A stretch of 64,000 nucleotides of DNA from Taenia hydatigena. Its lineage: Eukaryota > Platyhelminthes > Cestoda > Cyclophyllidea > Taeniidae. The stretch is taken from the NCBI GenBank assembly GCA_036345935.2, contig JADWOT020001362.1, positions 26,146 through 90,145 of the forward strand. Direction: 5' to 3'. The notes beneath the pieces are model-generated. The model did not search any database and was not told the origin of the DNA. It worked only from the letters and a program-made list of their open reading frames with translations. This document shows positions 1 through 32,808 of the stretch, one piece after another. Each line of letters opens with the position of its first letter. The first letter of the stretch is position 1. Both the position numbers and the translations under genes were made by a program.

Positions 1-472
1 CCAAGTCGGAGACTGGTTGTTTATTTAGAAGTGTCCTTGTAAGATCGTTATTTGATTGAATTTTGACTAATTTGTAGACAGCCAATGTTGAAGTCTCCGC
101 TATCCTGAAGTGTGTGGTCGCGATCGCAGGTGCCGTGCCGTTACTTTGGATGTCATCGAGTGTGTGATGTGGATGCAGATTGACATGTAGTGTATTGTTG
201 AGCTGGTGCAAATCAAGTGCATTTTTCTTCGCATCAGCCATGAGGAATGAGGTGGACCCTGCCTGCAATCAGTACTGCTGCTCACCTTATTGCGGCTTTC
301 ATGTGTTAATGTTCAAGCCCTTCAACTAGGTGTTCTCATTAAAAGGAGTAAACGAGGTTCTGCTTGGCAAAACGTTGGTTCCTTTTGATTTTTCCCTTTG
401 TGTAAAATATTTATCCGTCAGATTTTTTAAGAGTTTCATTTCGATGGGCTGTTATTGGCATACATGTTGTGT

Positions 473-817
473 TCATTTTCTTTGTGTGGATGTGGCCTGG
501 AGTCGAGTATCTGAAATGCTGTGGTGGTGGTGTAGCAAAGAGGTGGTAGTTTGTGAGTTTATAGGGATAAACGAGAGAAGGCACTGCTGTTGAGATACCA
601 TATGGCAGCAAGGCTCACTGCAAAGGGTTCGACTACTAAAGGAATCAAAGGTCCGGATGGCACGGGGCAGGGCAAACGACAAATCTATCCAATCGCTTGT
701 TCGATGACTTAGGGTCTTTGCGTTCTGTAACTGCAATGACCACTCTCTCTTCGCTTTCCCAATTCCCTCAATGCTGGTCTGTACTACCCAAATGCGCAGA
801 GTAGTACGTTTCCCCAT
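473..817 (-). CDS. Unknown 114-codon ORF, left-arm copy
   Basis: ATG-initiated ORF beginning MGKRTTLRIW, with a basic N-terminal half and a His/Ser/Thr-rich C-terminus containing a short His run. No family is recognised. The translation is identical in the right arm (31819-32163), and the overlapping plus-strand frame at 771-1028 is also unchanged. So the conservation may reflect gene conversion or recency and need not mean protein constraint. No splice sites or clear core promoter support this frame. It could equally be non-coding. Confidence 0.25.
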   Translation of the reverse strand: MGKRTTLRIWVVQTSIEGIGKAKREWSLQLQNAKTLSHRTSDWIDLSFALPRAIRTFDSFSSRTLCSEPCCHMVSQQQCLLSFIPINSQTTTSLLHHHHSISDTRLQATSTQRK

Positions 818-1059
818 CCTACCACCACGATTGCGCCCCCACCCTTCCCCAGTGGAAAGGATAGACCATTTCCAACCATTTCTAACTGTCTGTCATTTTA
901 GAAGGCATGCTGGTGAGAAGCTGTTTTGGATGACACGGATCAATTCCTACCTGAAGGCGTCAGTCAACTATTTAGCCAGCCAGCTGGAAAAGAGCTGCTT
1001 CCCAAAACATCCAATTCTCAGTGTTTAATTGCCTAGAGAGGTTGACAACGGAGAACTCA

Positions 1060-1491
1060 ATGTCTGAGTGCAAGAACAATGTTTGCTTGTCATCACCGAT
1101 CTCATACGCGCCATCCTCTCCGCCTGACAACAACTATTCATCTGCACGGCAGATTACTCACCGACTCACGCGATCAATTGTCCGTTCTCCTGCTCGCTAC
1201 TACTTCTCCTACGACTGCTGTGAATGTCGAAATGCCGATTTGCCGCACGAGGGCGGCTACTTGAGTGCATTAAAGGAACAAGGAGACGTCAGAAGCATGC
1301 TGATGGGTTCTCTTCTCCAGAACAGGCAACCGCACAACTTCAGTACACACAGCCAAGCACTGGTTTGCTGTTTGACCCGAAATCTCCATAAACTACCCAG
1401 CACTACCTGCCTACGCCGCGCAGTTGCCCTCACCAACAGAACAAGCAATGATGAATGCTATGCAGGATGTGGTGTTGAAAGTGACCGTTAG
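1060..1491 (+). CDS. Unknown 143-aa protein, left-arm copy
   Basis: Open from ATG at 1060 (MSECKNNVCL...) to a stop at 1491. The composition is balanced: Ser/Pro-rich near residues 10-25, then an Arg-rich stretch (about residues 31-45), then RYYFSYDCCECRNAD with a CC-x-C cysteine group, then a Leu/Met-rich helix-like part. Together with the inner-end ORF it is the longest ATG-to-stop frame in the window. The right-arm copy differs at only three residues. Its 3' end overlaps the tail of the antisense ORF that carries the H4 relic. No family match is recognised. The frame may be extended upstream by splicing. Confidence 0.4.
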   Translation: MSECKNNVCLSSPISYAPSSPPDNNYSSARQITHRLTRSIVRSPARYYFSYDCCECRNADLPHEGGYLSALKEQGDVRSMLMGSLLQNRQPHNFSTHSQALVCCLTRNLHKLPSTTCLRRAVALTNRTSNDECYAGCGVESDR

Positions 1492-1560
1492 CGCATCCAC
1501 ACAGCATCCGCCGCAGTTTCTCTCCCTCCGTCCACCCTTCGGCTGCAACATCTCCTTGGA

Positions 1561-1777
1561 GAGGAGCATGTTCCTTGCATTTAAGGCATAGACCATGTAC
1601 GCAGTAGTAATGGTCTTGAGCTTCACGAGCTCAGTGTGTGTGACGGGTTCGCGATTAAGGGCCACTGAAAAAAACTTTGAGCTCACTGCTGATCTCGCCC
1701 CAAACGAGCTCATCTGTTCTAAACACTAATCGATAACATGAAAAAAAGGGTCAAAGTGCATTCAAAGACTGCTTTTG
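1561..1777 (-). pseudogene. Histone H4-like relic, left arm (frameshifted)
   Basis: Minus-strand copy of the H4-like sequence described at 30860-31075. The core reads VTHTELVKLKTITT followed by VYAL, against VTYTEHAKRKTVTA...VYAL in H4. A run of seven A (six T in the right-arm copy) adds one base in the LKVF region, so the upstream part is out of frame. H4 is among the most conserved proteins known, so many substitutions plus this frameshift indicate a decayed gene. A TATA-like sequence lies about 90 bp upstream on the same strand. Confidence 0.8.
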
Positions 1778-1919
1778 ACAAAAAAATAATCTGACAGATT
1801 ACTCTCATCAATGTTCGCATTCACAATGTGTTGATTGCGTTACTATCGACAGTTATCGATGGTGCTTTATAAAGGACAAAAACACAAATCCCACAAAGGC
1901 GGCAACACTTAGTCGATAA
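1729..1919 (-). promoter_or_regulatory. TATA box and TCGATA motif cluster upstream of H4 relic (left)
   Basis: Four copies of an ATCGAT/TCGATA-type motif occur at 1729-1736, 1844-1849, 1853-1860 and 1913-1919. Two of them form a near-palindrome (CTATCGACAGTTATCGAT). A TATA-like CTTTATAAA reads on the minus strand at 1866-1874, about 90 bp upstream of the H4 relic. In insects such motifs bind DREF/BEAF-type factors; whether that applies here is inference. The cluster is mirrored in the right arm. Confidence 0.45.
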
Positions 1920-2389
1920 ATCACAAAGTGTAAATAATGAAGGGAAATAGAATGGTAAGAAGTCCAGAAAATGCCTGCTCTTTAACGCTTTAACTGCTAT
2001 GATCCGTACTGAGCGCAGGTCAAGTGTGAACTACCAATGCGTAGAGAAAGAATGAAGGATAAGAAAGTTATACCACGGTTAAGGGGACAGGAAAAAATGA
2101 AGGATAGGAGGGAAGGGAATTAAACTGCTTCTCTAAGAATATGCAGCCTCCCCCATGATCATTCCTCCTTGACAAAATTTAACGCGGAGAGTAAGAGCAG
2201 ATGATCATTCCATCGGTCTCGAGTCTCTATTCGGTTACTTTGAGAGGAGACGAGTACTTGAATCCGAAGAATCGAGGTTACCTTCAGCGCTGCGTAATCT
2301 TCCTGGAACGTGGAGTCCCGTCAGACGAGATGGCAGTTCATAAAGATCGTACAAAACAAGTGAACGCTTAGGCAACGCCAACCAACGGG

Positions 2390-2607
2390 ACAGAGATTCG
2401 CAGCTTCACTGAATTGGCAATCCTCTACAGGCGCTTCGTTAAAGGCTAAGATCGGTAGCCCCTGCATAAGGTGACCGAAAAGCTGGCAAAACATTTTAAG
2501 TGGGAGATCGAGCATCACGAAGCGTCAGAAGAACTAAAATAAAAACTGCTCTGCAGCGTTCCAAGCCTTACCAAACTTTGAGACCAGCTAGCCGTGAATG
2601 GTGCGCT
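2390..2607 (-). pseudogene. Possible histone H3 relic, left arm
   Basis: Read on the minus strand, LPILAFNEAPVEDC...EAANLC resembles H3 SAVMALQEASEAYL...EDTNLC with one-residue gaps. Upstream, QLFGHLMQ resembles QDFKTDLRFQ. Further upstream, S/R-AP...R-x-GT echoes SAP...RPGT of H3. Identity is only about 25% over some 45 residues and several indels are needed. The case rests partly on its neighbours, the H4 and H2B relics on the same strand. Downstream of NLC no H3 similarity remains. Confidence 0.35.
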
Positions 2608-3126
2608 TTCCCAGGGTAGAGAAAAATAAAGAGAACATATCATCACCCACGCCAGTATTAGACTTGGCAAAAGTATGAGACGGAAAAGTGCAACAGACCG
2701 TGAATTGTTCGTCAACTCTACAATGGTTAGGCACTTCATAATACCTGATAGTGGGCAAGCCCATAGTGAGAACAGATTTTCAAGCGCTGACTTGCTTAGA
2801 AACAGAGAAGTAGAAGGACTGTTCAGTTGCGCGATGGTACGAGGAACTGCATCAACAAAACCTCACAGTTTAGCACAGAAAAGGAAATTCGCAGGGCAAT
2901 GCGAAGGCACTATACTGCAAGACACTCAAAGCTTCAATGAATGGTGATATAGTGAGTAAGCTTCTTTTGAGCAGGCCCAATATACATTGCTATAGAAACA
3001 CGCAAAGTACCGATCCTGACAGAGCCCTGATATACGATGAGTTTTCGACATCATCTTACTAGGTCTACAGCTGAAGAGATGAGTTTGACTAGCAAGGCAG
3101 CATGGGAAATGCAGCTGAAATGGTTG

Positions 3127-3319
3127 TAACTCGCCCTCGAGGATGAGTCCTATAGTAGTCAAAAGTCGCCATGTCTACCAAGCCTATAGTAGTCGCAGGT
3201 TCATTATTGCAAGCCGTTCCTAGAAAGTTGCTCAAGCAAATGGAGCATGAGAGCAAAAGACGGTAGAGACCTCGAGCAAACAATACTTGTGGCCCTTCCT
3301 TGCCAGCGACTTGCAGAAC
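3127..3319 (-). pseudogene. Histone H2B-like relic, left arm
   Basis: Minus-strand counterpart of 29331-29523. Three consecutive pieces match H2B in order across two frame changes: RLA-x-x-N-x-R (H2B RLAHYNKR), TIG-x-x-DMAT (TITSREIQT; the left arm has Leu where the right arm keeps the H2B Ser), and LILEGEL (LLLPGEL). A 12-bp direct repeat GACTACTATAGG flanks the middle part and looks like a small duplication that shifted the frame. Too broken to be coding. Confidence 0.55.
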
Positions 3320-4418
3320 TTCCGTCAAACCTGCATCGCATGCAGCAGTTTCAAAGGGTCTCACCTCACAGCGATCGCGTCAAATTAAAACTCAACAATT
3401 CATGCTCACATCCGCTGGAGAGTGCTTTTCTGGTGGCAAAGTAATGGGCTAGTCAGTCTAATTCTCTCTTGCGTCGATCAATGCAACGCTGCCCTCGGGG
3501 ACTTCTTTTTAAATAGCGTTCATGCTGCACTTACACTAGCGTACTTTGCCGAGGCAAGGTAGCACACTTCGATCAAAGCACATCAGTACTAGTAGATTTC
3601 CTTCTTTCCTTCCGTCTCCCTCACGTCACTGTGAAGCACAAAGACAAACAACGCCTGCTTACAAGAAGCCATCTCGAAGCACTTGTTACCGACCCAATCA
3701 GAAGAGGTTAATCACACAAATAACCACCACACACTCGCATACGCATTCCACCAACTTCTACCATTCATCTTGCCTCCCACGTTATCATCGTTTCCACTAT
3801 TTTAGTTCCTCCTTACTGCCTCAGCCCCGCTTCGTTATATGCTTACCCACGTTCCGCTTCTCAAACTTCACTTGTACAGCCTCCATCCCAATCTCTCCGT
3901 GACTTCCCAACCTTCCGTTGCGTAGTTTAAAAAAGTCAAAGGGCCAGTGCAGATAGGAAATCTAGAAATTAAGAGTAATTTATGTTACCACCTTCTCCTT
4001 CTCTCCTGCTTCATCTTAAACTTCTCCTCATTCAACTCATTTACGTGCGTCGTCGTTCCAGCATTGCCGTAACTAGTGTATTTTACTTGTCAAGGCAAAC
4101 CGTGAAGAACGTCTTCAAGTGCATTGATTTTAAGAAATTTACATCCCTACATACTTCACTTGAGTACATGGCTGGAGAAATGTGTAAACAAAAGTATTCA
4201 GGAGAATGTGGAAGGAAAAGGACAAGGAATAAGGAACGCAGTGCTACAGCACTGTGCAGAAATATCCGGTTATGACCCTTCTCCATCCTCTCCTCTACTT
4301 CTCTTCTGTGGACGTCTCACCTTCGCCTCTCACACGACTATTCTTCCGAGTTAGTCGCCAATGGCTTTTTTCCCAAAAAAACAACAGAGATAAAAAGCTG
4401 ACGCAAAGCAGTCTAGAC

Positions 4419-4583
4419 ATGGCAGCGCATTTAATTCAAAGCACATTGGTATTGGTGGTCAGTCTTATCCTCCTCCCCAGACAATGCATGCGCCGTGATG
4501 CAGAGAGATCGGCCCAAGCACAGAAGACACGGAGGGAAGTGATGCTCGCTGCCAGGAAAGCATCCGCAAGGGGTGACGCCTAA
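4419..4583 (+). CDS. Small secreted peptide candidate, 54 aa (left arm)
   Basis: ATG at 4419 opens a 54-aa frame. Residues 1-23 (MAAHLIQSTLVLVVSLILLP, then RQC) form a plausible signal peptide with a hydrophobic core. The rest is short, very basic and Ala-rich (MRRDAERSAQ...KTRREV...AARKASARG), a likely amphipathic helix with no cysteine framework. The mirror copy keeps the frame with at least one substitution (Pro to Ser at the end of the core). No family is recognised. The opposite strand is also open here (4431-4658), so coding is not certain. Confidence 0.4.
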   Translation: MAAHLIQSTLVLVVSLILLPRQCMRRDAERSAQAQKTRREVMLAARKASARGDA

Positions 4584-4747
4584 GTTCAACATCGGACGGC
4601 GACGACACGTGCCACTAATCGATTTGCACGTGTGGTTTCGAAATGGCCCATCGCACAACAGAGTCGGATATGATTGACTACGTATTGTTTTGCATCCCGC
4701 TGCTTATTTTCCTCAAAGAATTGCCCCTCTAATTTAGTTTGCCATCA

Positions 4748-4894
4748 ATGCCTCTCCTCTGTTTCATTTTCCTTCCCATTAAATATTCTGTCATTTTTTT
4801 GCTTCTGGCGCCTCCCTTCATCTATACATCACTCATAATCGCCCATTCCGCCGTTACGGAGAAGTCAAAAGACCAAAGCGGATATCAACAGTAG
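4748..4894 (+). CDS. Small hydrophobic-leader ORF, 48 aa (left arm only)
   Basis: ATG at 4748 starts a frame with a long hydrophobic leader (MPLLCFIFLPIKYSVIFLLL) and a short polar tail ending at TAG. The right arm has eight T instead of seven in the homopolymer after codon 16, so from the same ATG it switches to another frame and becomes a different, longer peptide. A strong donor (GGAG followed by GTAAG) lies just after this ORF in both arms, so the true product may be spliced. Speculative. Confidence 0.25.
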   Translation: MPLLCFIFLPIKYSVIFLLLAPPFIYTSLIIAHSAVTEKSKDQSGYQQ

Positions 4895-5844
4895 AAATCG
4901 GAGGTAAGATGTGCAAATAGCTTCGCTTCTCTCTTCTTCCCGTGCATTGCTTCATTTGAGTAAGTCATTTCAATATTATTAAATCTGGTACCCATTCTAA
5001 ATTACACGAACAGGAAATCTATCTTGAGCATATTTAAGTACGCTGCTGAAAAGTTAAGTCTCCTGTCAATAGGCCAATTACTTCAAGTGCAACTCAGTTA
5101 GATGGCCGGATGAGTGGGTAGGTGAATCAGTTTAGGTGTAGATGGGAGAAAGAGGGAAAGAAATGCAGAATACTACACCACGGCACTGTGCAGGGTCAGC
5201 TTAAGGCAGACATGTGTAATCTCCAAATCTCCTTCCCCACCCTGTCTTATTTTATGCCCTCGGCTTCTCATCGCCTTGCCCTTCTCTCAATCAGTCCTTT
5301 GTCTCTTCAAGATGTGCATTCATGTGAATTAGCAGTGCAAAGAAGTAATTCTGCCAGGCAGAGAAGAAACAGGCATCAAAAATGTGACGTTGTTACCTGA
5401 CTAGTAATCCTTAGGGGTGAAACGCCGACTTCTCCAATCAACTCCTACCCCGCACCACGCTTACTTTGTGCATCACTTCCATGCCCTTATATCCGCTCAA
5501 TAAGTAGCACCAGTGTGATACATGTTGAGATAACAATAATAAATTTTTCAATGTGTATTCTACTGCAGGAGCACTCCAGCACGGTATGCAAGACCAAAAT
5601 TGACTAGGTTGCACGTGGACAGAAGAGAGCAGAGTAGACACCTCAACTGGATTATGACAGGCTTGAGGAAAGTAGAAAAGGAGAGGACAATAGGGTTACC
5701 ACATCTCTCGTGTATTCCTCGTCCTAATAGGCATCTTATACGTTATCGTTGAAGTCAAGCTTAACAGCACTCTAATTTGACCCGCCTAATCCCTTTCTTT
5801 CCTTCTTTATTTCTCGCAGACACTAAGGATCGAGGTACTTATAC

Positions 5845-5853
5845 TATAAAAAG
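5845..5853 (+). promoter_or_regulatory. TATA box for the 5909 gene
   Basis: TATAAAAAG lies 56 bp upstream of the last base before the ATG at 5909. This places a transcription start about 30 bp downstream, with a short leader. The element is intact in the right arm. Confidence 0.5.
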
Positions 5854-5908
5854 ACCTGGTAAAGTCTCTGGAGTGGAGGAATCGCAGCTCTCCTACGTCT
5901 CTTTACCC

Positions 5909-6220
5909 ATGCCTACTGCAAAGCGCCTTCGGTGAGTGCTTTCTTTGCCTCCTACTGCGACGTTCTACATGCTTCCAAGTATTGCAACTTGTATTATGCC
6001 CTGCTGTTTGTGCTCTATGCATTCAATTCAACCGAGAGAGAGGAGTAGGTTTTTTCTGCACTTCATTTCCTTGTTTTTATCTTTCCAATTTAGTGGCACA
6101 AGATTATTTCTCCTCTCTGCCTCCCTTACACTGTACTTGCCTTCCCTTCTCCAAACCCAGCCTCAATTTACCCAAGCCTCCTCCTCTTACCTCGTTGTCT
6201 GCCAGCGCTCTCTTTTTTAG
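5909..6220 (+). CDS. Spliced gene for a 49-aa secreted peptide (left arm)
   Basis: Model: exon 1 is 5909-5931 (MPTAKRL plus two bases), with donor CG followed by GTGAGTGC. A 162-bp intron follows, ending in a long pyrimidine tract and TTTAG. Exon 2 is 6094-6220. The phases match and give a basic start (AKRLRGTR) followed by a hydrophobic core (LFLLSASLTLYLPSLL), a classic signal-peptide shape, then a Gln/Ser-rich tail. A TATA box sits at 5845. A second frame through exon 2 is also open (5982-6344), so an alternative product is possible. Further exons at 6421 and 6591 suggest a longer transcript. No family recognised. Confidence 0.45.
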
Positions 6221-6420
6221 TTCTTTACATCTTTCTACTTGTCTCACTCTATATTGCGGCATGATTCAATGCTGCCAAGATCATAGCCTACATCAGACTA
6301 GCATGGACCATACTGTATCTGACTCAACCACGCTTTATTTATAACGAAATCTCATTTTAGCATAGCCCAGCCTGCATTGCCATTCATTTCCCATTTCCAT
6401 CTTTCTTTCTGCCGTTGTAG

Positions 6421-6623
6421 TTGGTCCCACACTACTTTGCCTCAAATTCGTGTCATACTCCTACTTTACCTCCACTTAGCCCCTCGAGAGCAAAGGTGAG
6501 TACGTTGCTCCTACTTTTACTTCGTAATTTGTAGACCCGTCAACTCCCACCTCATAATTTCACTGCCCAATTCTTTTCTTCTCTCTTTAGAGGATCCTTC
6601 TACCTAGCGCTCTATACTAGCGG
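6421..6623 (+). other. Two further splice-bounded exons (left arm)
   Basis: Segment 6421-6495 is 75 bp, open in frame 0 (LVPHYFASNS...PSRAK), and lies between a pyrimidine-rich TTGTAG acceptor and a strong AAAG/GTGAGT donor. A 95-bp intron ends in TTCTCTCTTTAG at 6590. The next exon (6591-6623) reads RILLPSALY then stop in the same frame, with a GTGAGA donor behind it. These look like 3' exons or alternative exons of the transcript that starts near 5875. How they join 6094-6220 is not resolved. Confidence 0.4.
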
Positions 6624-6649
6624 GTGAGAATGTGCGCTTCCTGCCTCCG

Positions 6650-7520
6650 ACAGACTACCTGCTCCTTTTCCACCATGTATCTGTGCCTGTTCTCTTGGGT
6701 CTGAAAAGTTGCTCATGATATCACTTTCGTTTTAAAACAGGTACATTGCATGAAATGCATTGTCAAATATCTTCACTAACGTCGTTGTCCATCAAATTTA
6801 GCAGACAGTACAATTCTTTATTTGGTACTGCTAGAAATCACCTACCAACGTCGTCATATCCAAGCTAGCTGTAGCCTTTAAAAGTTTGCCTTTAGTTATC
6901 GAACCAAAGTGCACCCACTTAAACAGCTATAACGTAGTTTAGTTCTTATTAGGTTACTCAAACTGGTATGTATCACTAGCGAGTTGATGAGCATAAATAT
7001 GATGTGACACATTTGGATCTTGCTAACTCCCTTGGGAATGCCGGCGAAACATCTACAACCAAAATTGATTCACATAACGATAGACTTTAGCACATTTTCC
7101 TCTTCAGATAGAACAATACATTTGCAGGATTTGTAAGACCGTTAAGTTCAACGCCATTCAAACAATTTTTCCACATTTTTATAGCTATTACTATCTGTTG
7201 ATTAGGTTACAAAAAGCGCTAAGGCATGGCTTCTTAGACACAATTAGGAGCCCGGAGATTTAATCCAAAAAACAAGGCCTAAACTCCCCAGACAGTAATC
7301 TATCAAAGAACAAAATCAATAAAAAGCGCTCACTTAAATCCCATCCCTTTTAATTCGCTGTGAAATATCAATAGCAGGAGTACCTGATTCTGCTGCAGAA
7401 TTCATCCTTAGAGGCGAGGCGGAGGACCCGTTTTGATGCATATAATGTTCTTATTAAAAGAAGGGTTGTGGCAAGAAAAATAATCCGAGGCAACGTCACG
7501 TCCTAGATTGAATTCCAAAC
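6650..7520. other. Left-arm stretch without recognised gene
   Basis: AT-rich sequence with no long ORF, no convincing splice pair and no recognised repeat. It is mirrored at about 25131-26000. Confidence 0.5.
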
Positions 7521-7523
7521 GCG

Positions 7524-7624
7524 ATTGGCCATAAATTTTATGAATTTCTCTGGTGTGTCTGCCACCAACATTTCAATTGCCTATTGGCTGATAAAAGATT
7601 ATAGCACTCTCTCTATTATATAAG
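7524..7624 (+). promoter_or_regulatory. CCAAT-CCAAT-TATA core promoter (left arm)
   Basis: Two inverted CCAAT boxes (ATTGG at 7524-7528 and 7583-7587) precede TATATAAG at 7617-7624. About 95 bp downstream an ATG at 7718 opens a 21-codon ORF starting MGKQVSSLNN, a possible N-myristoylation start, ending at 7783. Most of it is kept in the right arm. Whether the product is that tiny peptide, a spliced mRNA or a non-coding RNA is unknown. Confidence 0.45.
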
Positions 7625-8169
7625 TGGCTGGAGGTGACCAATGTAGGAGTAAGGAATCTGGCATGACAAACTGATGTATCTACACGACTTTTGAGCTAGC
7701 GCCTCGCGGTATTAGCCATGGGCAAACAAGTTAGCTCTCTAAATAATTGTGCTCTACTTAGAACTAAGACAGGTCGATTTTGATTACGTTTGTCATAAAT
7801 TAACATGTCCATGAGTCTTATTGCTGTTTTTGCGACTTTACCCAATAAATGGGAATTCAGATAGCCTTTTTAAGGTACATTGGCCCAGGCATGCAGGAAT
7901 GGTGCAGTGTACACTAATCCCGCGACGAAATAGGGGTCATTGACTCACAAGGAAGATTTGCGCTTGAATGAAAACATAGGTTCGATTATTTTGCCTTGTT
8001 TGTTTCCTGTATCTACCACGCTATAGATGGACTTAACGTAAGGATAATTGTAGATGCTTACATCGTTAAAATAAGGCATGCTTAGAAGAAAGAAATTTGC
8101 CAGTTTGCTGTTTTTGAGATGGCTGTGATCAGCGAGCCCAGGCGGCTGGAAATATTGAGTCCACCGCAT

Positions 8170-10250: not shown

Positions 10251-10253
10251 TTT

Positions 10254-10673
10254 TCAGGCCTTGGTTGACAACATGTTGCAACGAATTAAGACGTAGACAA
10301 AAAAAATAATAGGTTTGCAGCATGAAATGCGCGTGAATTTCACAACATCGCCAATGTTGCTCATAATAGAGCAATTCTTAAGCATCAAATATTTATGAAA
10401 TAATAAGTTGCATGCGCGCCTGTACACTCTATTTTGTTTACTATACAAACAATTACACTTGTCCGCTAACGTGCTTTGCGCCAAAATTAGCCTCAGTCGT
10501 TCTTTTTCAACTTTTATTAAAAAGATGACTATTTTGTAAACAAATTCTTCAAGCGTATTTACTGCTTTAGTGTTGCCTTTATTGTCTACATATAGGCGAT
10601 GTTGGACGTCTGAGGTATGATATCCGTGTATTGCATTTCCGTGTTGTTCTGCATCCTTGTGATAATAAGGCAT
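10254..10673 (-). CDS. Unknown 139-aa ORF at inner end of left arm
   Basis: First ATG at 10673 (MPYYHKDAEQHGNAIHGYHT). The N-terminal 80 residues are polar and soluble-looking, with a Lys/Glu/Leu helix-like stretch (about residues 45-65). The C-terminal part is Cys/Ile/Phe-rich and may be non-coding read-through. The frame is open farther upstream without an ATG, so an upstream exon is possible. The right-arm copy stops after 79 residues. No family recognised. Confidence 0.35.
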   Translation of the reverse strand: MPYYHKDAEQHGNAIHGYHTSDVQHRLYVDNKGNTKAVNTLEEFVYKIVIFLIKVEKERLRLILAQSTLADKCNCLYSKQNRVYRRACNLLFHKYLMLKNCSIMSNIGDVVKFTRISCCKPIIFFVYVLIRCNMLSTKA

Positions 10674-10960
10674 AATTGACTCCCACACTTCCTTCCTCTT
10701 GGTAATGTTAGCTACTATAGTTTTCAATGCAAAGTAGAAATATTAGGCAACGAACAACGCATTTATTCTCTGGAATCGATGCCTCTTTAGCTCGGTAAAT
10801 ACTTAATCGGCACCTTGTTTTTCCAGAGTCAAGTTATTAGTGCCCCAAGATCAGCCTGATCTTTAGCCTAAGCGGCGTTCTAGGAGGTATCAACACGGTG
10901 GAGCAGTGCTAAGGCGACCCCTCTCCCCTTCATCATCAGGGCGCACATGACACTGCTACA

Positions 10961-13040: not shown

Positions 13041-13066
13041 TGACTTTACAAGAGAGAAGACTAGAA

Positions 13067-13243: not shown

Positions 13244-13249
13244 CAAGTG

Positions 13250-19556: not shown

Positions 19557-19655
19557 AATCCTTTGAATTGCAGTTGCTGATTTAGTAGTGAATACAAATT
19601 TAGATGATATACGGCATGACATCTGCTTTAGCTGCTAAAGCTCTCGGACTCAAAT

Positions 19656-19874: not shown

Positions 19875-19924
19875 TGTGAATGTGGGTTTCTTTAAGGCTA
19901 ACTTGCCTATATTCTTATCAAATC

Positions 19925-21959: not shown

Positions 21960-22199
21960 ATGCCTTATTATCATAAGGATGCAGAACAACACGGAAATGC
22001 AATACACGGATATCATACCGCAGACGTCCAACATCGCCTATATGTAGACAATAAAGGCAACACTAAAGCAGTAAATACGCTTGAAGAATTTGTTTACAAA
22101 ATAGTCATCTTTTTAATAAAAGTTGAAAAAGAACGACTGAGGCTAATTTTGGCGCAAAGCACGTTAGCGGACAAATGTAATTGTTTGTATAGTAAATAA
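21960..22199 (+). CDS. Truncated copy of the inner-end ORF (right arm), 79 aa
   Basis: Mirror of 10254-10673. A C-to-T change turns the CAA codon after YSK into TAA, removing the last 60 codons found in the left copy. The remaining 79 residues are nearly unchanged (Ser to Ala once). Either the left copy reads through by mutation or the right is a truncated allele-like copy. If the true protein ends near YSK, the left extension is the anomaly. Confidence 0.35.
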   Translation: MPYYHKDAEQHGNAIHGYHTADVQHRLYVDNKGNTKAVNTLEEFVYKIVIFLIKVEKERLRLILAQSTLADKCNCLYSK

Positions 22200-25026
22200 A
22201 ATAGGGTGTACAGGCACGCATGCAACTTATTATTTCATAAATATTTGATGCTTAAGAATTGCTCTATTATGAGCAACATTGGCGATGTTGTGAAATTCAC
22301 GCGCATTTCATGCTGCAAACCTATTATTTTTTTTGTCTACGTCTTAATTCGTTGCAACATGTTGTCAACCAAGGCCTGAAAATTTTGAATTCAAACTGAG
22401 AAACTTATACGGTGGAGGACGCCAATCAAGTTTGGGCAATCCCGAATCTCATCATAATTAATGGCAGCATTCTATATGCATTAACTGCAAGCATTAAGTT
22501 GTCAAAGCTGATGCTATCATTAATTGCCTGGTTAATAAAACCTTCTTGTGATCAGCGACTGCATTTGGGCACATTAGCTGGCTAATGCTGCAACATTATT
22601 TTAGCGTTTGTCCATTGCTCAGCGCTTGTTTTGCCCTACTTTACCATCTTTAATTAAAAATCAACGCTGTTACTAGCCAAAAATTCGATGACTCAACTGC
22701 ATGATTAACTGCATCTTCTACGAAGCCGACTCTTTTCCATCAATCATCCATTTGCGTGAAATGCGTCACTTCGTTAGTAGGTATGATAAATAGCAAAGAA
22801 AATGCACACTGCATGTAACTGGTAATTTTTCTGCTCCTTCCACGTCCATACAGCAGTATTCAATCCAAGCCATGTAGGAGGCCTAAAAGTCGTTTGGTTA
22901 AGGTACTGCTAAGACGCTCTTCCTTTTTACTGCATTCAGCTCCTTACAGTCAATGCGCAGTCTGTTACCTGCCTTTGTTAACGTAGAGCAATCGGAAAGG
23001 CCCATGGTGTCATGGATGACTGAATGCGACCCCGAAGAGGGTGACGCAAGTGTCATTTGGGACTGCTCTTGGCAGCTCACCAGTCATTGGTAGTGAACAG
23101 ACTACAATGACCGCTTTCTTCTGCACTTATCGTCAACTAGATAGCATCAATATTAATACGTTTGTGATCACCACCGCATTTAAGCAGTCTCTAAGTTGAC
23201 GAATTGAGTAGTGAGACATGGCGACCTAATAGCAATACATCAGTTTAAAGATATTTAACAATATTCTTAACCTCTTCGTATAGAAATTGTCTACTTGACG
23301 TTTGAGCCCATAACTGACACACAGTATCGTCTGTACAGTGGGAGAGCGTGCGCCAACCCAATAGAGGCCAAATTTTCAACATTGCATAGATTCGCATAGA
23401 TAATCAGCGCTACGCTTTGCTCTGAAGTTCAGGGTGCATGTACGCACTTCACTGACCCACAGGAGAACTACTTTACGTGCGCAGCGAAAAATACCACCAA
23501 CCATGGCCCATCGAAACTAGCTTTTATAACCAATCACCTTCTAAACCGAATTTCTGTCCCGTTGCTATTGCTGCATTGTCTGTACCAAGTGGCCTTAAAT
23601 ATCGCTACTCTTAGCATTTTGAAGGCTAGCCTGTGAGCGCTAAAGAGGCTGAGTTGCGATGCATCTTTATTAGCGATGCGTGTTAGATGCAAAAGTTGCT
23701 ACCGATTCACACGAAAGTTCAAATCTAGATTATAAAATTGCATTTTTCGTTCCTAACTCTTAAGCCTTCACTATGTGAGATTAAATTTGAGCCTAGCATC
23801 ATCACTCTACAAGGCTATGCTAATGCACAAAATGATGATTTGTGCATCTCGCGGTTACTATTCACAAGGGAGTATTTTCGTAAATTTGTCCTCTTAAGTG
23901 GTGAAAGCAAAAATGTTTAAGATTCGAAGAAAGAAGTGAGCTATCCAATGCGAACCGTTTTTAGACAAATTTGACTCGGAACTTCACCAAAATGTATAGC
24001 TTAATCCAATTTGTCAACCTTTCGCATGAAGATGGATCGATAAACTTCGAATTCATCATTTTCGCTGCTACATATATTATACTTAGGGCGCTTAAGAAGG
24101 GCGAATAGGCTTCCAATCGGCAATTCAACTGGTAGGAGGCAAAGTTCTGGACGTATTTCCCCCAAAGCATTGGGTCGAAAATCAATCCTTGTGCAAAATA
24201 CCCCTTGTTTAAAACAATGTTGTTACGAATGCAATGCCAAACAGACTCACTATAAAACAATTTGATATTCCTGCTAGGTGCAAGCTTGTGGTCCATATTT
24301 CATTGAATGCGGAGTCTTACAGCCGGCAACTTAATAAACTGAAGCTGGTTGGGCAAATTGCGTCCAGCCCACATTGAAGCATCCGCACGGGTTTGAGGTT
24401 GGCCGGATAGACTACCAGGCGATTCAATTAATCTTCTAGCAATCGATTACAGGTGCTATCCTCTTTACAACAATTTACCCCATGCGGTGGACTCAATATT
24501 TCCAGCCGCCTGGGCTCACTGATCACAGCCATCTCAAAAACAGCAAACTGGCAAATTTCTTTCTTCTAAGCATGCCTTATTTTAACGATGTAAGCATCTA
24601 CAATTATCCTTACGTTAAGTCCATCTATAGCGTGTTAGATACAGGAAACAAACAAGGCAAAATAATCGAACCTATGTTTTCATTCAAGCGCAAATCTTCC
24701 TTGTGAGTCAATGACCCCTATTTCGTCGCGGGATTAGTGTACACTGCACCATTCCTGCATGCCTGGGCCAATGTACCTTAAAAAGGCTATCTGAATTCCC
24801 ATTTATTGGGTAAAGTCGCAAAAACAGCAATAAGACTCATGGACTTGTTAATTTATGACAAACGTAATCAAAATCGACCTGCCTTAGTTCTAAGTAGAGC
24901 ACAATTATTTAGAGAGTTAACTTGTTTGCCCATGGCTAATACCGCGAGGCGCTAGCTCAAAAGTCGTGTAGATACATCAGTTTGTCATGCCAGATTCCTT
25001 ACTCCTACATTGGTCACCTCCAGCCA

Positions 25027-25127
25027 CTTATATAATAGAGAGAGTGCTATAATCTTTTATCAGCCAGTAGGCAATTGAAATGTTGGTGGTAGACACACCA
25101 GAGAAATTCATAAAATGCGTGGCCAAT
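25027..25127 (-). promoter_or_regulatory. Core promoter copy with one CCAAT box lost (right arm)
   Basis: Mirror of 7524-7624. TATATAAG and the distal CCAAT box are intact, but the TATA-proximal box reads ACTGG instead of ATTGG. Promoter strength may therefore differ between the copies. Confidence 0.4.
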
Positions 25128-26027
25128 CGCGTTTGGAATTCAATCTAGGACGTGACGTTGCCTCGGATTATTTTTCTTGCCACAACCCTTCTTTTAATAA
25201 GAACATTATATGCATCAAAACGGGTCCTCCGCCTCGCCTCTAAGGATGAATTCTGCAGCAGAATCAGGTACTCCTGCTATTGATATTTCACAGCGAATTA
25301 AAAGGGATGGGATTTAAGTGAGCGCTTTTTATTGATTTTGTTCTTTGATAGATTACTGTCTGGGGAGTTTAGGCCTTGTTTTTTGAATTAAATCTCCGGG
25401 CTCCTAATTGTGTCTAAGAAGCCATGCCTTAGCGCTTTTTGTAACCTAATCAACAGATAGTAATAGCTATAAAAATGTGGAAAAATTGTTTGAATGGCGT
25501 TGAACTTAACGGTCTTACAAATCCTGCAAATGTATTGTTCTATCTGAAGAGGAAAATGTGCTAAAGTCTATCGTTATGTGAATCAATTTTGGTTGTAGAT
25601 GTTTCGCCGGCATTCCCAAGGGAGTTAGCAAGATCCAAATGTGTCACATCATATTTATGCTCATCAACTCGCTAGTGATACATACCAGTTTGAGTAACCT
25701 AATAAGAACTAAACTACGTTATAGCTGTTTAAGTGGGTGCACTTTGGTTCGATAACTAAAGGCAAACTTTTAAAGGCTACAGCTAGCTTGGATATGACGA
25801 CGTTGGTAGGTGATTTCTAGCAGTACCAAATAAAGAATTGTACTGTCTGCTAAATTTGATGGACAACGACGTTAGTGAAGATATTTGACAATGCATTTCA
25901 TGCAATGTACCTGTTTTAAAACGAAAGTGATATCATGAGCAACTTTTCAGACCCAAGAGAACAGGCACAGATACATGGTGGAAAAGGAGCAGGTAGTCTG
26001 TCGGAGGCAGGAAGCGCACATTCTTAC

Positions 26028-26230
26028 CCTCTAGTATAGAGCGCTAGGTAGAGGAATCCTCCAAAGAGAGAAGAAAAGAATTGGGCAGTGACATCGTGAG
26101 GTGGGAGTTGGACGAGTCTACAAATTACGAAGTAAAAGTAGGAGCGACGTACTCACCTTTGTTCTCGAGGGGCTAAGTGGAGGTAAAGTAGGAGTATGAC
26201 ACGAATTTGAGGCAAAGTAGTGTGGGACCA
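26028..26230 (-). other. Two further splice-bounded exons (right arm)
   Basis: Mirror of 6421-6623. The 75-bp exon keeps both splice sites. The acceptor of the last exon is changed from TTTAG to TTTGG, so splicing there would have to move two bases downstream and change frame. The two arms may therefore make different 3' ends. Confidence 0.35.
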
Positions 26231-26430
26231 ACTACAACGGCAGAAAGAAAGATAGAAATGGGAATGAATGGCAATGCAGGCTGGGCTATGCTAAAATGAG
26301 ATTTCGTTATAAATAAAGCGTGGTTGAGTCAGATACAGTATGGTCCATGCTAGTCTGATGTAGGCTATGATCTTGGCAGCATTGAATCATGCCGCAATAT
26401 AGAGTGAGACAAGTAGAGAGATGTAAAGAA

Positions 26431-26742
26431 CTAAAAAAGAGAGCGCTGGCAGACAATGAGGTCAGAGGAGGAGGCTTGGGTAAATTGAGGCTGGGTTTGG
26501 AGAAGGGAAGGCAAGTGCGGTGTAAGGAAGGCAGAGAGGAGAAATAATCTTGTGCCACTAAATTGGAAAGATAAAAACAAGGAAATGAAGTGCAGGAAAA
26601 ACCTACTCCTCTCTCTCGGTTGAATTGAATGCATAGAGCACAAACAGCAGGGCATAATACAAGTTGCAATACTTGGAAGCATGTAGAACGTCGCAGTAGG
26701 AGGCAAAGGAAGCACTCACCGAAGGCGCTTTGCAGTGGGCAT
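26431..26742 (-). CDS. Spliced gene for a 49-aa secreted peptide (right arm)
   Basis: Mirror of 5909-6220, with exon 1 at 26720-26742 and exon 2 at 26431-26557. Start, donor, acceptor and stop are all kept. Exon 2 has several amino-acid changes (in the core and the tail), more than in other shared ORFs, so this gene diverges faster than its neighbours between arms. Confidence 0.45.
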
Positions 26743-26797
26743 GGGTAAAGAGACGTAGGAGAGCTGCGATTCCTCCACTCCAGAGACTTTACCAGGT

Positions 26798-26806
26798 CTT
26801 TTTATA
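26798..26806 (-). promoter_or_regulatory. TATA box for the 26742 gene
   Basis: Mirror of 5845-5853 with the same TATAAAAAG on the minus strand. Confidence 0.5.
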
Positions 26807-28068
26807 GTATAAGTACCTCGATTCTTAGTGTCTGCGAGAAATAAAGAAGGAAAGAAAGGGATTAGGCGGGTCAAATTAGAGTGCTGTTAAGCTTGACTTC
26901 AACGATAACGTATAAGATGCCTATTAGGACGAGGAATACACGAGAGATGTGGTAACCCTATTGTCCTCTCCTTTTCTACTTTCCTCAAGCCTGTCATAAT
27001 CCAGTTGAGGTGTCTACTCTGCTCTCTTCTGTCCACGTGCAACCTAGTCAATTTTGGTCTTGCATACCGTGCTGGAGTGCTCCTGCAGTAGAATACACAT
27101 TGAAAAATTTATTATTGTTATCTCAACATGTATCACACTGGTGCTACTTATTGAGCGGATATAAGGGCATGGAAGTGATGCACAAAGTAAGCGTGGTGCG
27201 GGGTAGGAGTTGATTGGAAAAGTCGGCGTTTTACCCCTAAGGATTACTAGTCAGGTAACGACGTTACATTTTTGATGCCTGTTTCTTCTCTGCCTGGCAG
27301 AATTACTTCTTTGCACTGCTAATTCACATGAATGCACATCTTGAAGAGACAAAGGGCTGATTGAGAGAAGGGCAAGGCGATGAGAAGCCGAGGGCATAAA
27401 ATAAGACAGGGTGGGGAAGGAGATTTGGAGATTACACATGTCTGCCTTAAGCTGACCCTGCACAGTGCCGTGGTGTAGTATTCTGCATTTCTTTCCCTCT
27501 TTCTCCCATCTACACCTAAACTGATTCATCTACCCACTCATCCGGCCATCTAACTGAGTAGCACTTGAAGTAATTGGCCTATTGACAGGAGACTTAACTT
27601 TTCAGCAGCGTACTTAAATATGCTCAAGATAGATTTCCTGTTCGTGTAATTTAGAATGGGTACCAGATTTAATAATATTGAAATGACTTACTCAAATGAA
27701 GCAATGCACGGGAAGAAGAGAGGAGAGAAGCTATTTGCACAACTTACCTCCGATTTCTACTGTTGATATCCGCTTTGGTCTTTTGACTTCTCCGTAACGG
27801 CGGGATGGGTGATTATGAGTGATGTGTAGATGAAGCGAGGCGCCAGAAGCAAAAAAAATGACAGAATATTTAATGGGAAGGAAAATGAAACAGAGGAGAG
27901 GCATTGATGGCAAACTAAATTAGAGGGGCGATTCTTTGAGGAAAATAAGCAGCAGGATGCAAAACAATACGTAGTCAATCATGTCCGACTCTGTTGTGCG
28001 ATGGGCCATTTCGAAACCACACGTGCAAATCGATTAGTGGCACGTGTCGTCGCCGTCCGATGTTGAAC

Positions 28069-28233
28069 TTAGGCGTCACCCCTTGCGGATGCTTTCCTGG
28101 CAGCGAGCATCACTTCCCTCCGTGTCTTCTGTGCTTGGGCCGATCTCTCTGCATCACGGCGCATGCATTGTCGGGAGAGGAGGATAAGACTGACCACCAA
28201 TACCAATGTGCTTTGAATTAAATGCGCTGCCAT
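28069..28233 (-). CDS. Small secreted peptide candidate, 54 aa (right arm)
   Basis: Mirror of 4419-4583: same start, length and stop, with the hydrophobic N-terminal core and basic Ala/Arg-rich C-terminus retained. The Pro codon following the core is a Ser codon here. No promoter or splice site is assigned with confidence. Confidence 0.4.
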   Translation of the reverse strand: MAAHLIQSTLVLVVSLILLSRQCMRRDAERSAQAQKTRREVMLAARKASARGDA

Positions 28234-29330
28234 GTCTAGACTGCTTTGCGTCAGCTTTTTATCTCTGTTGTTTTTTTTGGGAAAAAAGCCATTGGTGACT
28301 AACTCGGAAGAATAGTCGTGTGAGAGGCGAAGGTGAGACGTCCACAGAAGAGAAGTAGAGGAGAGGATGGAGAAGGGTCATAACCGGATATTTCTGCACA
28401 GTGCTGTAGCACTGCGTTCCTTATTCCTTGTCCTTTTCCTTCCACATTCTCCTGAATACTTTTGTTTACACATTTCTCCAGCCATGTACTCAAGTGAAGT
28501 GTGTAGGGATGCAAATTTCTCAAAATCAATAAACTTGAAGACGTTCTTCACGGGTTACCTTGACAAGTAAAATACAATAGTTAGGGCAATACTGGAACGA
28601 CGACGCACGTAAATGAGTTGAGTGAGGAGAAGTTTAAGATGAAGCAGGAGAGAAGGAGAAGGTGGTAACATAAATTACTCTTGATTTCTAGATTTCCTAT
28701 CTGCACTGGCCCTTTGACTTTTTTAAACTACGCAACGGAAGGTTGGGAAGTCACGGAGAGATTGGAATGGAGGCTGTGCAAGTGAATTTTGAGAAGCGGA
28801 ACGTGGGTGAGCATATAACGAAGCGGGGCTGAGGCAGTAAGGAGGAACTAAAATAGTGGAAATGATGATAACGTGGGAGGCAAGATGAATGGTAGAAGTT
28901 GGTGGAATGCGTATGCAAGTGTGTGGTGGTTATTTGTGTGATTAACCTCTTCTGATTGGGTCGGTAACAGGTGCTTCGAGATGGCTTCTTGCAAGCAGGC
29001 GTTGCTTGTCTTTGTGCTTCGCGGTGACGTGAGGGAGACGGAAGGAAAGAAAATCTACTGGTACTGATGTGCTTTGATCGAAGTGTGCTACCTTGCCTCG
29101 GCAAAGTACGCTAGTGTAAGTGCAGCATGAACGCTATTTAAAAAGAAGTCCCCGAGGGCAGCGTTGCATTGATCGACGCAAGAGAGAATTAGACTGACTA
29201 GCCCATTACTTTGCCACCAGAAAAGCACTCTCCAGCGGATGTGAGCATGAATTGTTGAGTTTTAATTTGACGCGATCGCTGTGAGGTGAGACCCTTTGAA
29301 ACTGCTGCATGCGATGCAGGTTTGACGGAA

Positions 29331-29523
29331 GTTCTGCAAGTCGCTGGCAAGGAAGGGCCACAAGTATTGTTTGCTCGAGGTCTCTACCGTCTTTTGCTCT
29401 CATGCTCCATTTGCTTGAGCAACTTTCTAGGAACGGCTTGCAATAATGAACCTGCGACTACTATAGGCTCGGTAGACATGGCGACTTTTGACTACTATAG
29501 GACTCATCCTCGAGGGCGAGTTA
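29331..29523 (+). pseudogene. Histone H2B-like relic, right arm
   Basis: The segment begins VLQVAGKEG (compare H2B VLKQVHPDTG) with A-x-GL at the AMGI position. RLAIMNLR, then after a one-base shift TIGSVDMAT, align to RLAHYNKRSTITSREIQT, giving 9 identities in 19 without other gaps. After a duplicated 12-bp motif, LILEGEL aligns to LLLPGEL. Order and spacing fit H2B, but at least two frame changes are needed, so this is a relic if it is H2B at all. Confidence 0.55.
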
Positions 29524-30042
29524 CAACCATTTCAGCTGCATTCCCCATGCTGCCTTGCTAGTCAGACTCATCTCTTCAGCTGTAGACCTAGTAAGATGAT
29601 GTCGAAAACTCATCGTATATCAGAGCTCTGTCAGGATCGGTACTTTGCGTGTTTCTATAGCAATGTATATTGGGCCTGCTCAAAAGAGGCTTACTCACTA
29701 TATCACCATTCATTGAAGCTTTGAGTGTCTTGCAGTATAGTGCCTTCGCATTGCCCTGCGAATTTCCTTTTCTGTGCTAAACCGTGAGGTTTTGTTGATG
29801 CAGTTCCTCGTACCATCGCGCAACTGAACAGTCCTTCTACTTCTCTGTTTCTAAGCAAGTCAGCGCTTGAAAATCTGTTCTCACTATGGGCTTGCCCACT
29901 ATCAGGTATTATGAAGTGCCTAACCATTGTAGAGTTGACGAACAATTCACGGTCTGTTGCACTTTTCCGTCTCATACTTTTGCCAAGTCTAATACTGGCG
30001 TGGGTGATGATATGTTCTCTTTATTTTTCTCTGCCCTGGGAA

Positions 30043-30260
30043 AGTGCACCATTCATGGCTAGCTGGTCTCAAAGTTTGGTAAGGCTTGGAACGCTGCAGA
30101 GCAGTTTTTATTTTAGGTCTTCTGACGCTTCGTGATGCTCGATCTCCCACTTAAAATGTTTTGCCAGCTTTTCGGTCACTTTATGCAGGGGCTACCGATC
30201 GTAGCCTTTAACGAAGCGCCTGTAGAGGATTGCCAAGTCAGTGAAGCTGCGAATCTCTGT
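30043..30260 (+). pseudogene. Possible histone H3 relic, right arm
   Basis: Mirror copy of 2390-2607. The SAP triplet lies at 30043-30051 and the NLC-like end at 30252-30260. A stop follows soon after (TAG where the left arm has TGG), so the frame that stays open in the left arm is broken here. Similarity to H3 is weak and gapped. Position between the H2B-like and H4-like relics on the same strand is the main added support. Confidence 0.35.
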
Positions 30261-30716
30261 CCCGTTGGTTAGCGTTGTTTAAGCGTTCACTTGTTTTGTA
30301 CGATCTTTATGAACTGCCATCTCGTCTGACGGGACTCCACGTTCCAGGAAGATTACGCAGCGCTGAAGGTAACCTCGATTCTTCGGATTCAAGTACTCGT
30401 CTCCTCTCAAAGTAACCGAATAGAGACTCGAGACCGATGGAATGATCATCTGCTCTTACTCTCCGCGTTAAATTTTGTCAAGGAGGAATGATCATGGGGG
30501 AGGCTGCATATTCTTAGAGAAGCAGTTTAATTCCTTCATTTTTTCCTGTTTCCTTAACCGTGGTATAACTTTCTTATCCTTCATTCTTTCTCTACGCATT
30601 GGTAGTTCACACTTGATCTGCGCTCAGTACGGATCATAGCAGTTAAAGCGTTAAAGAGCAGGCATTTTCTGGACTTCTTACCATTCTATTTCCCTCCATT
30701 ATTTACACTTTGTGAT

Positions 30717-30908
30717 TTATCGACTAAGTGTTGCCGCCTTTGTGGGATTTGTGTTTTTTGTCCTTTATAAAGCACCATCGATAACTGTCGATAGTAACGC
30801 AATCAACACATTGTGAATGCGAACATTGATGAGAGTAATCTGTCAGACTTATTTTTTTGTCAAAAGCAGTCTTTGAATGCATTTTGACCCCTTTTTCATG
30901 TTATCGAC
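30717..30908 (+). promoter_or_regulatory. TATA box and TCGATA motif cluster upstream of H4 relic (right)
   Basis: Mirror of 1729-1919. The TATA-like CTTTATAAAG lies at 30763-30772 and the paired ATCGATA...TCGATA motif just downstream. The motif nearest the H4 relic has changed here (ATCGAC in place of ATCGAT), so the arms differ at one site of the cluster. Confidence 0.45.
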
Positions 30909-31075
30909 TAGTGTTTAGAATAGATGAGCTCGTTTGGGGCGAGATCAGCAGTGAGCTCAAAGTTTTTTCAGTGGCCCTTAATCGCGAACCCGTCACACAC
31001 ACTGAGCTCGTGAAGCTCAAGACCATTACTACTGCGTACATGGTCTATGCCTTAAATGCAGGGAACATGCTCCTC
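30860..31075 (+). pseudogene. Histone H4-like relic, right arm (in frame)
   Basis: Translation VFRIDELVWGEISSELKVFS, then R-x-PVTHTELVKLKTITT, then VYAL, aligns without gaps to H4 from about residue 43 to 97 (VKRISGLIYEETRGVLKVF...VTYTEHAKRKTVTA...VYAL). Identity across the best 43 residues is about 44% and includes LKVF, VT-x-TE, K-x-KT and VYAL. Upstream, short matches (SKAVFE against the H4 HRKVLRD region, and an I-x-x-P...RL stretch) suggest more of H4 with small deletions. The basic N-terminal tail is missing and there is no ATG at the start. H4 tolerates almost no change, so this is most likely a relic. A strongly diverged histone-fold gene is the alternative. Confidence 0.8.
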
Positions 31076-31144
31076 TCCAAGGAGATGTTGCAGCCGAAGG
31101 GTGGATGGAGGGAGGGAAACTGCGGCGGATGCTGTGTGGATGCG

Positions 31145-31576
31145 CTAACGGTCACCTTCAACACCACATCCTGCATAGCATTCATCATTGCTTGTTCTGT
31201 TGGTGAGAGCAACTACGCGGCGTAGGCAGGTAGTGCTGGGTAGTTTATGGAGATTTCGGGTCAAACAGCAAACCAGTGCTTGGCTGTGTGTGCTGAAGTT
31301 GTGCGGTTGCCTGTACTGGAGAAGAGAACCCATCAGCATGCTTCTGACATCTCCTTGTTCCTTTAATGCACTCAAGTAGCCGCCCTCGTGCGGCAAATCG
31401 GCATTTCGACATTCACAGCAGTCGTAGGAGAAGTAGTAGCGAGCAGGAGAACGGACAATTGATCGCGTGAGTCGGTGAGTAATCTGCCGTGCAGATGAAT
31501 AGTTGTTGTCAGGCGGAGAGGATGGCGCGTATGAGATCGGTGATGACAAGCAAACATTGTTCTTGCACTCAGACAT
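31145..31576 (-). CDS. Unknown 143-aa protein, right-arm copy
   Basis: Mirror copy of 1060-1491. It is intact end to end, with three substitutions visible in the translation (Asn to Tyr, Ala to Val, and Ser to Gly near the C-terminus). Preservation of such a long frame in both arms is mild support for coding. However, the arms are so similar that chance preservation is possible. Function unknown. Confidence 0.4.
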   Translation of the reverse strand: MSECKNNVCLSSPISYAPSSPPDNNYSSARQITHRLTRSIVRSPARYYFSYDCCECRNADLPHEGGYLSALKEQGDVRSMLMGSLLQYRQPHNFSTHSQALVCCLTRNLHKLPSTTCLRRVVALTNRTSNDECYAGCGVEGDR

Positions 31577-31818
31577 TGAGTTCTCCGTTGTCAACCTCTC
31601 TAGGCAATTAAACACTGAGAATTGGATGTTTTGGGAAGCAGCTCTTTTCCAGCTGGCTGGCTAAATAGTTGACTGACGCCTTCAGGTAGGAATTGATCCG
31701 TGTCATCCAAAACAGCTTCTCACCAGCATGCCTTCTAAAATGACAGACAGTTAGAAATGGTTGGAAATGGTCTATCCTTTCCACTGGGGAAGGGTGGGGG
31801 CGCAATCGTGGTGGTAGG

Positions 31819-32163
31819 ATGGGGAAACGTACTACTCTGCGCATTTGGGTAGTACAGACCAGCATTGAGGGAATTGGGAAAGCGAAGAGAGAGTGGTCAT
31901 TGCAGTTACAGAACGCAAAGACCCTAAGTCATCGAACAAGCGATTGGATAGATTTGTCGTTTGCCCTGCCCCGTGCCATCCGGACCTTTGATTCCTTTAG
32001 TAGTCGAACCCTTTGCAGTGAGCCTTGCTGCCATATGGTATCTCAACAGCAGTGCCTTCTCTCGTTTATCCCTATAAACTCACAAACTACCACCTCTTTG
32101 CTGCACCACCACCACAGCATTTCAGATACTCGACTCCAGGCCACATCCACACAAAGAAAATGA
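31819..32163 (+). CDS. Unknown 114-codon ORF, right-arm copy
   Basis: Mirror copy of the ORF at 473-817 with the same amino-acid sequence, starting at an ATG that follows a G-rich stretch. It overlaps the antisense ORF 31608-31865, which is also unchanged between arms. The local lack of differences is unusual compared with the few-percent divergence elsewhere in the arms. Function unknown, and coding status unproven. Confidence 0.25.
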   Translation: MGKRTTLRIWVVQTSIEGIGKAKREWSLQLQNAKTLSHRTSDWIDLSFALPRAIRTFDSFSSRTLCSEPCCHMVSQQQCLLSFIPINSQTTTSLLHHHHSISDTRLQATSTQRK

Positions 32164-32808
32164 ACACAACATGCATGCCAATAACAGCCCATCGAAATGA
32201 AACTCTTAAAAAATCTGACGGATAAATATTTCACGCAAAGAAAAATATCAAAATGAACCAATGTTTTTCCAAGCAGAACCTTGTTTACTCCTTTTAATGA
32301 GAACACCTAGTTGAAGGGCTTGAACATTAGCACATGAAAGCCGCAATAAGGTGAGCAGCAGTACTGATTGCAGGCAGGGTCCACCTCATTCCTCATGGCT
32401 GATGCGAAGAAAAATGCACTTGATTTGCACCAGCTCAACAATACATTACATGCCAATCTGCGTCCACATCACACATTCGATGACATCTAAAGTAACGGCA
32501 CGGCACCTGCGATCGCGACCACACACTTCGGGATAGCGGAGACTTCAACACTGGCTGTCTACAAATTAGTCAAAATTCAATCAAATAACGATCTTACAAG
32601 GACACTTCTAAATAAACAACCAGTCGCCGACTTGGCTATCGAAAATTGCTGGCGCATCACTTACCGTTATCTGCATCGCATCTATGTGGCAGCCCAATAT
32701 CCTGCCTCAGCTCGGCAATACACTCCCTACTGACAAGCATATCAGCTCACTTTCAAACAACTTTGGGGTGGTCGTTAATAGCTCCACCCCCTGCGCCTAG
32801 CTATTTAG

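Follow-up and report, generated by a model that had tools for sequence, protein, structure and literature searches.

A large inverted repeat inside a high-copy dispersed repeat of Taenia hydatigena, probably joined at a five-base microhomology

The locus

A stretch of 64,000 nucleotides from the cestode Taenia hydatigena, referred to here as the window, contains a giant inverted repeat whose arms and spacer are also found dispersed over many other contigs of the same genome. The window is positions 26146-90145 of contig JADWOT020001362.1 (C855), a 90-kb contig in an assembly of 306 Mb and 1,354 contigs; coordinates are window positions, and negative numbers denote C855 sequence to the left of window base 1. 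Comparison of the window against itself with BLAST revealed one pair of inverted segments only, 1-10960 and 32635-21673, which are 97.96% identical over 10,985 columns and far exceed chance expectation; the same pair was also resolved as 13 ungapped blocks in a repeat search of the window. The presence of such a repeat in the assembly, first proposed in a reading made from the sequence only, was thereby borne out, as was the estimate of arms at least 10.96 kb long. The placing of an arm end at 32635 was mistaken, because the arm match reaches window base 1 and 32635 is its mirror position, set by the window edge. The search of the left flank for the outer arm end, which the sequence-only reading had recommended, was run by adding the missing 26 kb: self-BLAST of C855 places the full arms at -5937..10960 and 21673..38531, each 16.9 kb and together 95.8% identical, so that the left arm ends at -5937 and the right at 38531. 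The inner arm ends are sharp, the sequences beyond 10960 and 21673 being unrelated. Features of the locus are listed in Table 1.

Table 1. Features of the window and of the adjoining arm sequence on C855
Feature	Position	Strand	Basis or remark
Left arm, inner part	1..10960	+	self-BLAST; extends past the window to -5937 = C855:20208
Right arm, full 16.9 kb, read 38531 down to 21673	21673..38531	-	self-BLAST of C855
"Spacer", continuation of right-arm sequence	10961..21672	-	C1059 and C1204 matches
Turn-back junction, microhomology TGTAG (read on - strand)	10956..10960	.	compared with C1059, C8, right arm
Spacer edge with old inverted copy at 63026-63750 (64%)	10978..11634	+
Predicted C2H2 gene, 118 amino acids, five exons	17467..18398	-	Pfam; spliced frame
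Diverged partial copy of C2H2 gene region, weak match	14257..14629	-
Decayed Ty3/gypsy-type pol remnant, left arm	2588..3355	+	RT_RNaseH_2 2588-2737, Integrase_H2C2 3254-3355, both below Pfam cut-offs
Mirror pol remnant, right arm	29295..30062	-	position taken from arm alignment
Right flank	38531..56438	+	38531-43986 and 55139-56438 copied at C8:8914712-8923652, upstream of spacer sequence on C8

With gaps set aside, the arms within the window are 98.37% identical (10,933 columns), and the 178 columns that differ comprise 145 transitions and 33 transversions. Fourteen indels were counted in this part (twelve of 1-3 bases, one of 14 and one of 19), where only two had been claimed. Transitions outnumber transversions by 4.4 to 1 in the inner arms (1-10955 against its mirror), by about 2.2-2.9 to 1 for other copies and by 2.4 to 1 for the outer arms. 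A strand asymmetry among the transitions of 1-10955 (91 versus 54, p=0.0027) was considered as proof of opposite orientation and was dropped as not robust: the outer arm gives 119 versus 127, and a pair in the same orientation, the right arm and C1204 over 6622-10960, is also skewed, at 12 versus 30.

Arms and spacer in the rest of the genome

Copies of the arms and of the spacer were found elsewhere. The left-arm query 1-2500 gave 50 matches (from the best 40 of 537 candidates), with the right arm at 98%, C535 at 97%, C909 at 92% and others lower, and the right-arm query 32500-35000 gave 41 (best 40 of 434), among which C989 (94%), C1057 (93%), and C914 and C535 (92%) outrank the left arm (91%). 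For the query 9000-11500, 53 matches were obtained (best 40 of 379 candidates), and only the window's own row crosses 10960 by more than 5 bases. C1059 217625-232688 matches 26031-10956 as one piece (15.1 kb, 96.8%), and C1204 81142-96083 similarly matches 29862-14854 (15.0 kb, 98.2%); C909 matches piecewise at 89-97% and lacks 26302-29635, and the match of C8, to 23009-10957, is 84-90% identical. Since these four contigs match across both, the inner right arm and the spacer are, as judged from the alignments, one run of a repeat family. The 10.7-kb spacer, which had been called unique, is so within the window, but genome-wide it is dispersed on other contigs.

The usual order of the family, arm and then reversed spacer some 9-11 kb on, was seen on C1059, C389, C199, C367 and C879 among the scored rows of the junction query described below, and also on C8 and C60 with the query 9000-11500; on C181 arm-type and spacer-type rows are both present but not in this order. 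Copies leave the common sequence at differing points (e.g., 29862, 14854 and 38531), so the family is a mosaic. Two copies lie less than 1 kb from the start of long contigs (C10:605-4524 and C2:754-2547), and because they adjoin these starts the family may be subtelomeric, or may mark contig breaks. Simple repeats are few in 1-64000, with two tandem-repeat rows, no A/T run longer than 8 and no C/G run of 7 or more.

The turn-back junction

The point at which the spacer meets the left arm is where the window departs from its relatives. With a junction query of 10700-11220 (best 40 of 284 candidates), the window itself is the only one of 40 rows that spans the junction; 15 stop at 10960, the right arm among them, and 24 begin at 10956 or later. 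C1059 and C8 run on past the junction point and remain collinear with each other for a further 4.5 kb, and 26 of 40 rows, C1059 itself left out, likewise cross the turn-back point (best 33 of 901 candidates). At the junction a microhomology of 5 bases, TGTAG, is common to the window, the C1059 continuation and the right arm, and C8 has four of the five bases; when 20,000 fold-back joins were drawn at random on the C1059 unit, 0.67% had a microhomology of at least 5. Human copy-number fold-back junctions are described, in the portion of the source drawn on here, as having a spacer and 2-8 bases of inverted microhomology (PMC3907307). On C855, inverted copies flank a spacer, the known ancestral order is broken at the turn-back point, and a short inverted microhomology (5 bases) lies at the turn-back junction.

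These matches also bear on whether arms and spacer could together form one giant transposon, the arms being its terminal inverted repeats and the spacer its body. A long repeat of many copies with common break positions, such as window 716 and C1059 at about 236363, would be in keeping with such an element. However, the 39 other scored rows of the junction query (best 40 of 284 candidates) include no case in which the spacer end leads into an inverted arm, and C1059 and C8 go on into other sequence; between the two break positions just named, a search for terminal inverted repeats returned only chance matches of 8-12 bases. A giant transposon of this form is almost certainly not the explanation.

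An assembly error deserves more weight. Different copies of the repeat, or two haplotypes, would then have been misjoined at 10956-10960, or an inverted chimeric read incorporated there, and the palindrome would exist on no chromosome. In favour of this, copy number is high in the region, with 379, 284, 537 and 901 candidates at first look; the junction is crossed in just the one scored match noted above; C855 is small for a contig; and of the 14 contigs listed as loci, 5 have sizes in whole thousands (54,000; 182,000; 185,000; 263,000 and 368,000 bases), possibly from cutting during scaffolding. In the rotifer Adineta vaga, as far as the sources used in part go, the palindromes of the first assembly are not matched in A. 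ricciae (PMC5916493), and only one was present when the genome was later assembled anew (PMC7749112). Against a misjoin, assemblers would be expected to change copies within long shared sequence and not over 5 bases; the arms differ by 1.5-6%, hence are not one molecule read back on itself; and the window is gap-free, with 0 N. The arm differences had already been offered as an argument against an assembly fold-back, and they do exclude a fold-back read of a single molecule but do not exclude a misjoin of copies or haplotypes. On balance an error of assembly is judged unlikely.

Origin of the inverted pair and kinship of its arms

We consider it probable that the structure arose by one microhomology-mediated inverted duplication or joining inside the high-copy dispersed repeat. 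As assembled, C855 carries two opposite-facing copies of this long repeat, and the right one keeps the family's usual order, with the arm leading into the spacer. Where that spacer ends and the other copies run on, C855 turns back at the 5-base microhomology and enters a second arm in inverted orientation. This arrangement could have come about if a broken end folded back, paired and was extended by copying, the spacer forming the loop, or by joining to another inverted copy; the two routes, fold-back from the right arm and joining of another inverted copy, are given about even chances. Exchange between dispersed copies at a later time would then have made the arms mosaic. The segmental duplication that the sequence-only reading had listed among its possibilities is the part of its interpretation that holds. 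No result of this analysis points to a function of the palindromic form.

The relationships of the arms to other copies were evaluated over 2788-10960. The left and right arms are 98.40% identical there, the left arm and C1204 98.18%, the right arm and C1204 98.61%, and the right arm and C1059 98.03%, with C1059 at 97.95-98.16% to the others; by such comparisons the arms are members of a near-star family. Among the matches scored, the closest copy to the left arm is the right arm, narrowly (98.62 versus 98.45%; 98.18 versus 98.11%; and 98 versus 97% for 1-2500), and these small margins favour, as far as identities can tell, some private history of both arms. The nearest copies to the right arm lie elsewhere, on C1204 over 2788-10960 and on C989, C1057, C914 and C535 over 32500-35000.

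Several observations weigh against the origin preferred here. Arm divergence has a change-point near window 405, with 6.1% in the outer 6.3 kb and 1.5% in the inner 10.5 kb (log-likelihood gain 128), and similarity that had been put at about 96-100% is accordingly high inside but not uniform. Nor are the arms mutually nearest, as they should be if the right arm had given rise to the left by one fold-back. Shared sites in 2788-10960 are split, 14 uniting the two arms, 11 the right arm and C1204, and 5 the left arm and C1204; by segment, the arms are favoured 7 to 3 in 6622-10960, and the right arm with C1204 by 9 to 6 in 2788-5537. The whole 16.9-kb arm with the spacer unbroken is absent from every fetched copy. 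Finally, the sequence next to the outer right end at 38531 has an abrupt start on C8 as well, and fold-back does not account for this. One fold-back should also have left divergence even along the arms; with neither expectation borne out, either later exchange has to be added or another copy was the source of the left arm. Nine of the 11 sites shared by the right arm and C1204 fall within 2962-4847, and this clustering makes patchwise exchange likely.

The same data address the suggestion of a sex-chromosome-type palindrome, maintained by arm-to-arm gene conversion and with an invertible spacer. The step in identity near window 405 and the clumping of arm differences (the longest identical run is 753 bases, p=0.0006) could represent conversion tracts, and over 534-3015 the arms are 98.8% alike as compared with 92.4-92.7% to C909. 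However, C909 shows a comparable step, from 92.5% in 534-3015 to 97% in 6622-10960; over 2788-10960 it is C1204, and not the left arm, that the right arm resembles more closely; and only weak retroelement matches were found by Pfam in the window arm. Both arms and the spacer are dispersed repeats, and with the nearer relatives of the right arm on other contigs the proposal of a palindrome like those of sex chromosomes or asexual animals is not upheld. Conversion between the arms fares no better, their not being mutually nearest; homogenisation between them is unneeded for an identity of about 98%, because copies on other contigs reach the same. A sex-chromosome-type palindrome is very improbable here.

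A predicted C2H2 gene in the spacer

The spacer contains a predicted zinc-finger gene with exons at 18398-18314, 18027-17953, 17872-17786 and 17648-17565, each with one finger, and a last exon at 17492-17467. Its four introns are all of phase 1 with GT-AG borders. All of its splice sites are kept in each of the six copies compared, the window included, and the frame with its stop in four of them, one of the others being without the stop and one frameshifted. In the copies from C8 (0.916 for exons and 0.916 for introns) and the second C1204 copy (0.885 and 0.901), exon identity to the window gene is close to intron identity. A simple nonsynonymous/synonymous ratio ranges from 0.11 to 0.61 over 15 pairs, being 0.42 for the window and C8 and 0.61 for the window and the second C1204 copy; this ratio ignores transition bias, and close pairs hold a handful of changes. 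In a search of the genome with the predicted protein, 166 matches were obtained (best 150 of 995 candidates), which fall in at least 67 places, the window's own included, and most of these rows are free of stops. The open frames are only a hint of selection, as local matches favour open stretches. A homology search with the spliced protein gave no match.

The repeat may carry a small C2H2 gene. It is conceivable, and in our view doubtful, that the repeat is a giant unit of at least 20 kb, as yet undescribed, which moves or spreads by itself and has its own C2H2 gene, of four fingers, one per exon, with introns all of phase 1. On this reading recent copies drift nearly neutrally while old-subfamily matches retain open exon frames, the pattern that would result were multiplication confined to master copies whose gene still functions.

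Other contents and the right flank

Six-frame Pfam scans, which covered the window together with stretches of C1059 and C8, gave weak matches only: the gypsy-type pol piece in the arms and the C2H2 fingers in the spacer. The spliced gene and the gypsy-type remnant are in keeping with an animal genome. Rfam gave no match in the window or in 14 fetched loci, ARAGORN found nothing in the window, and a homology search with the open reading frame at 976-1488 returned no match. The right flank begins at the same base on C8:8914712 beside a different sequence, so that 38531 is a second shared break position. Within the flank are old direct duplications of 62-67% identity, 49934-50389 with 53600-54065 and 55110-55300 with 56180-56369.

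Significance and comparison with known systems

An inverted pair inside a dispersed repeat is of modest interest by itself. It does illustrate that a dispersed repeat can, as an ordinary product, give rise to the "giant palindrome" that looks so striking in a single window, and that a genome-wide check of copies is needed before palindromes are read as signs of sex chromosomes or asexuality. If the palindrome is real DNA, it represents a fold-back-type duplication whose unrearranged order is legible from sister copies and whose junction is known within 5 bases. Of greater interest is a by-product, the high-copy repeat with its split C2H2 gene in dozens of locations.

Among known systems, as far as the parts of the cited reports used here describe them, human fold-back inverted duplications resemble C855 in having inverted copies around a loop and a turn-back microhomology (2-8 bases; 5 here) (PMC3907307). 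In contrast to these, the C855 event lies inside a dispersed repeat and its arms differ by 1.5-6%, and C855 gives no demonstrable terminal deletion or break-fusion history. Mammalian sex-chromosome palindromes such as human P6 (PMC3723533) likewise combine long inverted arms, a spacer and high identity, whereas identity on C855 is 98.5% in the inner and 94% in the outer part and equally similar copies exist elsewhere in the genome. Inverted collinear blocks in an assembled genome were also reported for the springtail Folsomia candida, in which one palindrome has zinc-finger gene copies (PMC5490193), and for the first assembly of Adineta vaga (discussed in PMC5916493 and PMC7749112). In both of these the palindromes are, on the same accounts, collinear blocks of genes, whereas the arms on C855 are a dispersed repeat with almost no recognisable domains.

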